Shown here in pieces: positions 27,282 to 29,567 of a stretch of 64,000 bases of DNA. The position numbers and the translations under genes were made by a program. The number at the start of each line of letters is the position of its first letter. The stretch's first letter is position 1. The notes beneath the pieces were generated by a model. That model was not told where the DNA came from. It made no database searches and was given only the letters and a program-made list of their open reading frames with translations. The DNA lies in assembly GCF_003449035.1 (NCBI RefSeq), contig NZ_QRGB01000001.1:868001-932000 (forward strand), written 5' to 3'. This DNA is from Pedobacter indicus (GTDB lineage: Bacteria > Bacteroidota > Bacteroidia > Sphingobacteriales > Sphingobacteriaceae).

Positions 27282-27319
27282 TTAAATTCAGGGCTCTTAA
27301 TAGAGAACCCTGAATTTAA
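27282..27319. terminator. Long hairpin at the convergent end of the TlpA-like and serB-like genes
   Basis: The 12-nt arms 27282-27293 and 27308-27319 are perfectly complementary, with an inner CTCT/AGAG stem. The stop codon of the minus-strand gene (27297-27299) reaches into the loop. There is no clear T-run on either strand. Confidence 0.55.
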
Positions 27320-28589
27320 TCGTATGCTCGACTGACTTCAACTCTTTCAAAACAATTTTATCGTACTTCCTGCTGATGTCCGTGATAACATACCCCAATC
27401 CTTTTTTTGTCATTAAGAACTGTGCGACAATATTGATGTCATGATCTCTTAAAATACCGTTAATCCGTGCCATAATGCCCGGAACGTTTTCATGGATATG
27501 GATCAGTCTGTGCGAATCGTTTTTCTGTGGTACGTTCAGATTAGGGAAGTTACGACTCATCATCGTATCACCATTGTTAATAAAATTGGCCATTCGCCTG
27601 GGAATGAAGTCCGCGTTTTTCCATTTATTCTTTTTGTCGTCAAACAATACAATACCATGTTGTCGGCAAAAATCCCGATCAATATGGCCTTTGCTGTTTC
27701 CCAGGTACCCAATGGTTTTTAAGCGCGCAGCAGATTGGATCATATCGTCGCTGAGATTTAAACCATCCTCAAGCAACAGCATTCCCGCTTCTTTTAAATC
27801 TGCGTCATCCAGGTCTTTTGCGGTGACTGTATTAAATCCGTCTTTTTTGAAAAAGCTAAGTGCATGTTTGGGAATCGAACCCACAAGGACACACAGTATC
27901 CTGTTCTTCGGATAGGAGATAGCACGCGGAAGCTGATTAATGTACAGGAATTCATCAAAATTGGGTGCTATATGGTCTGCTTTTGCAGAGACCGATTCGC
28001 GGCGGATGTTTTCAGTAAACGCATAAAACTTCTCGATCATCCCAGATTCCTTCAATTGGAAATCGGAGTACCCATCTCCTATTCCGTGAATCTCACCCTT
28101 TAACTTAAGCTGTTTAAGGAGCTTTACTTTTCCACCCTCTTCCGATAGAGGGTTCTCAGCATCGAAACCAATAATATTACCATTGACATCAAAAAGAAAT
28201 GTATTAGCAAAAACATTTTCTTCTGTTATATGATAATTCCGAACTACCGGATAAATGAATTCTTTAAAACCGCCGGATACAATCAGGACATCATCGGCGT
28301 TTTCTTTGAAAAAGGCTTTGTTTCTGGAAAAGGAAGCAGAAACCTTTTTCTTTAGTCTTTTAATGAGCAGTTCCAAGTGATCCTTATTTGCATGCAACAG
28401 CTGAAGGCGTCTGTTCAAGCTATCGCGAAAGGAAAGCTTACCTTCCATAGCCAAATTGGTCAACGATTCAATTTCATCAAGATAGCGTTGTTTGTTTGGG
28501 TTGTTTTTAAGGGATATCTTGGCTAATTCATCCAATGCCTCTACTTGGGTAAAAGTACTGTCAAAATCAATGATGTAACTTGTTTTCAT
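27297..28589 (-). CDS. serB: Phosphoserine phosphatase fused to SerA-like substrate and ACT domains
   Basis: The 430-residue protein has three parts. Residues 1-215 are a HAD phosphatase: DFDST (nucleophile D8, D10), VSGG (S105) and GDGYSD (171-176). Residues 229-340 resemble the N-terminal substrate domain of phosphoglycerate dehydrogenase (AARLKTIGYLGNSKGHIDRD) but without the NAD-binding Rossmann domain. Residues 349-430 closely resemble the SerA ACT domain, from NFPN through HIHENVPGI to the final RVLY. H366, N368 and N386 align with the serine-binding H344, N346 and N364 of E. coli SerA. It should make L-serine from phosphoserine and may be serine-inhibited. It follows the SDR gene by 24 nt. 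Confidence 0.87.
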   Translation of the reverse strand: MKTSYIIDFDSTFTQVEALDELAKISLKNNPNKQRYLDEIESLTNLAMEGKLSFRDSLNRRLQLLHANKDHLELLIKRLKKKVSASFSRNKAFFKENADDVLIVSGGFKEFIYPVVRNYHITEENVFANTFLFDVNGNIIGFDAENPLSEEGGKVKLLKQLKLKGEIHGIGDGYSDFQLKESGMIEKFYAFTENIRRESVSAKADHIAPNFDEFLYINQLPRAISYPKNRILCVLVGSIPKHALSFFKKDGFNTVTAKDLDDADLKEAGMLLLEDGLNLSDDMIQSAARLKTIGYLGNSKGHIDRDFCRQHGIVLFDDKKNKWKNADFIPRRMANFINNGDTMMSRNFPNLNVPQKNDSHRLIHIHENVPGIMARINGILRDHDINIVAQFLMTKKGLGYVITDISRKYDKIVLKELKSVEHTIKFRVLY

Positions 28590-28613: not shown

Positions 28614-29567
28614 TTATTCCGCTATGTCACGAAGTGTCTCTTTCAATGGTTTAAATGTGTACTGCAAGGTTTTAACAATTTTATCGTTGCTATATTTATT
28701 TTTCTTTCGGGCTGATCTAACGAGTTCTTTCGTTAGTTTTGACTTGCTCAGTTTAAGCAAACGAAGGATACTCTGTGTTCGCCAGGCAATGCCAAGCATC
28801 AATCGGTTTGCCGGAGTTTCAGGTGGTGTAATCTTGCGGATCTCTGCATATTGTTCGAAGAGCTCTTGATAGCTTATATTGACACTGTTGATCAAAAAAT
28901 TAGTGCCATTGATCTGATCGTCATTCATTAACCTGATCATAATATCAACAAGGTCATGCACATCCACAAAGCCCGTACTGCCCGTTGGGTAAAATTTTAA
29001 GCCTTTCTCAAGTTGCGAAAAGATCTGGCCACTATTCTCCCGATCATCCGCACCTAATACAATAGAAGGGTTGATGATCACAGCATTCAAGCCTTCCGCC
29101 ATTCCCCTCCAGACTTCACGCTCTGACTCAAATTTCGATATGCTGTAAGCGGATTTGTTTTTGTTCCACTCCCATTTACTGCTTTCGGTAATCAGTACAT
29201 CATCCCTTTCTTCACCCAACGCCGCAACTGAACTGACATGGAGCAGTCGCGCTTTCCGGTGGAGACAAAGATTGACAATGTGCGTGGTGCCTTCTACGTT
29301 GACTTTCTCTAAGGCTGCTTTGTCCTTGCTGTCAAAAGATACAAGACCCGCGCAATGGTATACTTGCGAGACATTATTAAACACATCTTCCAACGAGAAG
29401 TAATCGGTTATATCGGCGTCAAACCAAAATAGATTTTTCTTGTAAAGTAGCCTTTCGGGTATGGTAGAGTGTTTCCGTTTAATCGCCAAAACAGAGCTGC
29501 CTTTTAGCAATAATTTTTCAATCAGAAGAGAGCCTATAAAACCTGTTCCGCCCGTTACTAGAATCAC
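28614..29567 (-). CDS. NAD-dependent epimerase/dehydratase-like SDR protein
   Basis: The 317-residue extended short-chain dehydrogenase has the Rossmann motif GGTGFIG (6-12), the catalytic Ser112-113 region (VSSVAALG) and YSISK with Y141 and K145. The start is GTG at 29567; no better upstream start is seen. It resembles the group annotated as nucleoside-diphosphate-sugar epimerases, dihydroflavonol reductases or 3-beta-HSD-like proteins. The substrate cannot be told. It probably shares a transcript with the serB-like gene downstream and diverges from the arginase-fold gene. Confidence 0.82.
   Translation of the reverse strand: MILVTGGTGFIGSLLIEKLLLKGSSVLAIKRKHSTIPERLLYKKNLFWFDADITDYFSLEDVFNNVSQVYHCAGLVSFDSKDKAALEKVNVEGTTHIVNLCLHRKARLLHVSSVAALGEERDDVLITESSKWEWNKNKSAYSISKFESEREVWRGMAEGLNAVIINPSIVLGADDRENSGQIFSQLEKGLKFYPTGSTGFVDVHDLVDIMIRLMNDDQINGTNFLINSVNISYQELFEQYAEIRKITPPETPANRLMLGIAWRTQSILRLLKLSKSKLTKELVRSARKKNKYSNDKIVKTLQYTFKPLKETLRDIAE

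Follow-up and report, generated by a model that had tools for sequence, protein, structure and literature searches.

In E. coli SerA, a Type II 3-phosphoglycerate dehydrogenase, L-serine is bound across an ACT dimer through H344 and N346 of one subunit and N364' of the other, and moves the unit formed by the substrate-binding and ACT domains against the NAD-binding domain (PMC6300728). The HAD-IB phosphoserine phosphatases (PSPs) of the SerB2 type from M. tuberculosis and M. avium are also controlled by L-serine through ACT domains; MtSerB2 and MaSerB are inhibited by it, and the serine residues of MtSerB2 are E33, R103 and T136 (PMC10564941). No description of a SerB-SerA fusion, or of a truncated form of one, was found in the open-licence literature. 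A fusion reported from oomycetes joins SerA to SerC and is thus a different enzyme pair.

Here we analysed 64,000 nucleotides of the Pedobacter indicus genome (the window), in which an open reading frame at 27297..28589 encodes a 430-residue protein, P0001, composed of a PSP domain, a remnant of the SerA substrate-binding domain and an ACT domain. The initial annotation had these boundaries exactly right but gave no strand; the frame lies on the minus strand, as do all of the features located below. A single-chain AlphaFold2 model built from 36 sequences of the same layout (short forms) is confident (pLDDT 85.9, pTM 0.68) and has three parts. Immediately upstream, separated by a 24-base gap, lies an NAD-dependent epimerase-like gene (28614..29567), which also precedes the short form at all six named loci (L001-L005, L017) and has no known link to serine.

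The HAD-IB phosphoserine phosphatase domain occupies residues 1-214 (27948..28589) and is recognised by Pfam (HAD, residues 7-179, 3.6e-7), by TIGR01488 (74.9 bits against a cut-off of 45), by PDB matches and by fold. Motif I, D8-F-D-S-T12 (28554..28568), carries the nucleophile, and its D8, D10 and T12 are invariant across 62 short forms and 33 full-length SerB-SerA fusions. In all 62 short forms S105 of motif II, K154 of motif III, and D172 and D176 of motif IV, G171-D-G-Y-S-D176 (28062..28079), are likewise invariant, so that motifs I-IV (DxDxT, S, K, GDxxxD) are complete, together with the PSP specificity residues E17 and R61. The PSP equivalog model TIGR00338 is not reached (64.8 bits against 144.15); since a full-length fusion (L008, 59.5 bits) also falls under the cut-off, this model does not cover the subfamily to which P0001 belongs. 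The closest solved structures to residues 5-214 are the Francisella PSP-like protein 3kd3 (2.8e-26) and human PSP (~4e-21), both of which, unlike P0001, are single-domain proteins without ACT, and the PSP match found by Foldseek superposes well (TM 0.77, normalised by target). Assignment of this domain as a PSP is therefore upheld. P0001 is the predicted SerB of P. indicus, and from its motifs we infer that it hydrolyses phosphoserine.

The remainder of the chain corresponds to SerA from which one domain is missing. E. coli SerA (1yba) aligns to residues 224-318 and again to 332-430, reaching the last residue, and the NCBIfam SerA profile PRK11790 (1.1e-40 overall) matches residues 326-430 up to its final position, 410 of 410, although the SerA score, too, lies under the equivalog cut-off. 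The N-terminal part of the substrate-binding domain (27636..27905, residues 229-318) has lost its catalytic residues; it is followed by a deletion junction (27609..27635, residues 319-327), where nine residues stand in place of the 201-202 found in full-length fusions, and by the C-terminal helix of the substrate-binding domain with a linker (27540..27608, residues 328-350). In the Pfam search residues 235-316 resembled the N-terminal half of 2-Hacid_dh (4.7e-4, under the gathering score) and there was no match to the NAD-binding domain PF02826. Alignment to the fusions indicates that the missing part is equivalent to approximately residues 105-303 of E. coli SerA, which is the NAD-binding domain with its GxGxxG motif. 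Foldseek accordingly gives a poor global superposition of the whole chain on SerA (rmsd ~20 Å, TM ~0.24), as expected because one domain is missing. The Rossmann-less SerA remnant proposed in the initial annotation is thus borne out. The residues that remain have also changed: E. coli R60 is replaced in 61 of 61 Sphingobacteriaceae short forms, in which S61 is kept in only four and T63 in two, whereas in intact full-length forms R60 is kept in 30 of 31, and S61 and T63 in all 31. R240, E269 and H292 of E. coli SerA fall within the deletion. As aligned, the remnant no longer has the residues that bind 3-phosphoglycerate, and the SerA-like similarity of P0001 should not be annotated as a second 3-phosphoglycerate dehydrogenase.

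In contrast, the ACT domain (27300..27539, residues 351-430) is SerA-like up to its final residue. In addition to the profile match described above, Pfam recognises ACT_AHAS_ss at residues 362-425 (2.6e-10), and the alignment to 1yba shows that the serine-binding trio, as first proposed, is intact and identical to that of E. coli SerA. H366 (27492..27494) corresponds to H344, which binds the serine carboxylate, N368 (27486..27488) to N346, which binds the amino group, and N386 (27432..27434) to N364, the ligand contributed by the partner subunit. Compared with E. coli SerA, P0001 therefore retains both halves of the substrate-binding domain and the ACT domain with its trio, lacks the NAD-binding domain and the catalytic residues, and has a phosphatase in addition. 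The resemblance to SerB2-type enzymes is of another kind, as these carry two N-terminal ACT domains rather than one at the C-terminus, use serine residues unlike the trio, and have ACT domains of probably different ancestry.

How this arrangement arose can be read from its full-length relatives. Full-length fusions, which persist in other Bacteroidota (L006-L016, L019, L082-L106), match P0001 on either side of a gap of approximately 192 residues. They share with P0001 the order of PSP, substrate-binding and ACT domains and the linker SYPKNRI (e.g. L008, L103, L013), but have in addition a complete NAD-binding domain and R60, S61, R240, E269 and H292. L008 has an end-to-end match to E. coli SerA (6e-128), and this fusion scores above the equivalog threshold for SerA (656.9 bits, with 404 required). 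In a tree of ACT domains, the check that had been suggested for the origin of this domain, the short forms fall inside a clade (support 99/97) that comprises the ACT domains of the fusions and those of some stand-alone (Neomarinimicrobia) SerA proteins. A tree of the PSP and ACT domains groups the Sphingobacteriaceae short forms as one clade (100/98) and places the short form of the Bacteroidota family f14, which belongs to an order other than that of the window, within a separate supported clade of fusions (100/99). The AU test rejected one common origin for the excised forms (p = 0.019, a value to be read with caution given the long branches present). The trees and alignments together indicate that the NAD-binding domain, some 190-200 residues, was lost from an ancestral full-length SerB-SerA at least twice. 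We consider this evolutionary account of P0001 to be strong. The initial annotation had described a sensor taken from the first step of serine synthesis, and the ACT domain is indeed derived from SerA; it was, however, not transplanted, as the whole of SerA was fused first and the NAD-binding domain was lost later.

Other lineages carry graded forms. Two full-length proteins, L102 (genome G322) and L104 (G241), keep most of the NAD-binding domain but lack R60, R240 and H292; the dehydrogenase has therefore also been lost by decay in two more lineages, and these proteins are apparent pseudo-enzyme intermediates that keep the PSP and the serine-binding ACT residues. In genome G255 a 231-residue SerB and an ACT-bearing SerA of 407 residues are encoded by adjacent, separate genes (L140, 1176-3159, minus strand), and as this pair is nested within the fusions it is a probable re-split of a fusion. 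The existence of intact, catalytically dead full-length and excised forms makes the order of events testable.

The short form is the rule in the family to which P. indicus belongs. Matches to P0001 were present in 191 of 201 Sphingobacteriaceae genomes, one per genome and, among the matches listed, all of the short form; conservation of the architecture to this extent is far beyond chance. Among named genomes, the relatives in Albibacterium, Pedobacter, Sphingobacterium and a strain listed as Flavihumibacter soli have 430 residues, whereas those in Flavobacteriales and one Cytophagaceae MAG are full-length, at approximately 623 residues. Of 139 genomes sampled across the class, 49 gave matches, and strong matches outside Sphingobacteriaceae were mostly full-length fusions of 612-732 residues, the f14 short form (L081, 424 residues) being of the P0001 type. 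In one f14 genome (G256) the short form is split into two overlapping frames of approximately 115 and 345 residues (L141, 1438-2708, minus strand); since SerA is also in two pieces in this genome, assembly errors are the likely cause. The family genomes without P0001 (G010, G033, G048, G059, G069 and G079 of genus g11, G023, G042, G024 and G122) are mostly small. No other good SerB match was found in those tested, and SerA was present in all three examined for it (G010, G033, G023); either the last step of serine synthesis is missing from such genomes or another phosphatase performs it.

The remaining serine genes of P. indicus lie apart from P0001. A 356-residue SerC, over the TIGR01364 cut-off, is followed by a 317-residue SerA that consists of PF00389 and PF02826 only, without ACT. 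The other clear 2-hydroxyacid dehydrogenases, of 291-318 residues, are too short to contain an ACT domain, and no second match to the P0001 ACT domain was found in the genome. P0001 is the sole HAD-IB protein over the cut-off and the only recognisable phosphoserine phosphatase. Because a separate, ACT-less SerA adjoins SerC, the dehydrogenase of the fusion was redundant, and this redundancy probably permitted its loss. A stand-alone SerA was found in every genome tested that has a dead or excised dehydrogenase (that of P. indicus and seven others of the family, three of f14, and G322 and G241), and in 15 of 23 genomes with an intact one (a set that includes the split G255), the other eight having none; this pattern is consistent with the proposal without amounting to statistical proof. 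A second SerA-like dehydrogenase of 318 residues (L055, 1411-2367, minus strand; TIGR01327, 2e-78) overlaps the end of a KsgA-like gene.

We propose that P0001 is an active PSP that has retained the ACT domain as a dimeric sensor of L-serine, a reading that we consider fairly probable. According to this model, the redundant fused dehydrogenase lost its substrate-binding residues through decay and its NAD-binding domain through excision, with the PSP and ACT domains remaining under strong selection. The ACT domains of two chains would join in the manner of E. coli SerA, and two L-serine molecules would be held at the interface, each by H366 and N368 of one chain and N386 of the other. As the NAD-binding domain is gone, transmission of the signal as in E. 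coli SerA cannot operate; with the trio kept, any effect of bound serine would have to fall on the phosphatase. The signal might pass through the substrate-domain remnant to lower PSP activity or, alternatively, act through the oligomeric state. We infer the ACT dimer, the binding of serine and the sign of its effect from the parallels with the described enzymes.

The main rival to this proposal, which we regard as possible but clearly less probable, is that the ACT domain serves dimerisation or stabilisation alone, with the PSP unregulated or inhibited by its product at the active site. An ACT interface is one of the two dimer interfaces of the E. coli SerA tetramer (PMC6300728). Moreover, approximately 23 residues of the ACT region are invariant, many of them outside the ligand trio; invariance of the trio is therefore not unique to ligands and could partly be structural. 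However, H366, N368 and N386 do not vary in any of the 62 short forms or in the two full-length forms with a dead dehydrogenase, and a mere dimer interface would not need all three ligands, while no such constraint is seen at the nearby positions E345 and A366 (E. coli numbering).

A serine sensor is likewise to be preferred to an ACT domain that binds another ligand, such as glycine or a different amino acid, or through which serine activates the enzyme, either of which we consider improbable. Many different amino acids are ligands of ACT domains, and there are some differences from E. coli SerA close to the pocket, in the region of A366/A367; the trio is nevertheless common to fusions with an intact SerA half, for which serine is the expected ligand. 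Association of P0001 with the SerA of the cell through mixed ACT pairs, put forward in the initial annotation as an alternative, draws on the SerA-like nature of the ACT domain and nothing else, and is refuted as stated: neither the 317-residue SerA nor the other dehydrogenases have an ACT domain, the 191 family genomes with a match contain only one apiece, P0001 itself, and we regard such pairing as very improbable. Loss of the NAD-binding domain and of the dehydrogenase residues might finally suggest a decaying or mis-assembled gene without function, a reading that has next to no likelihood and is ruled out by family-wide conservation, intact PSP residues and a dN/dS of approximately 0.02 in every domain. 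Pooled over six independent close pairs, dN/dS was 0.018 for HAD, 0.030 and 0.017 for the N- and C-terminal parts of the substrate-binding domain and 0.021 for ACT; P0001 is not decaying, and its ACT part is as strongly constrained as the phosphatase.

If P0001 is a serine sensor, the end product may now be sensed at the final reaction of the pathway, and the feedback control predicted in the initial annotation is plausible. We lean, by a small measure, towards the view that in Sphingobacteriaceae and independently in f14 allosteric serine control has passed from the enzyme that opens the pathway to the one that closes it, with an ACT-less SerA taking over step one. This would be a natural and repeated case in which an enzyme domain has been lost and its allosteric domain kept, apparently in the service of a fused partner, and it predicts the site of serine feedback across a whole bacterial family. 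One further full-length protein, L106 (G283), has an intact SerA half and a PSP half on a very long branch, with DFDQT as motif I and SYS in place of SGG in motif II; its phosphatase half may be changing function.
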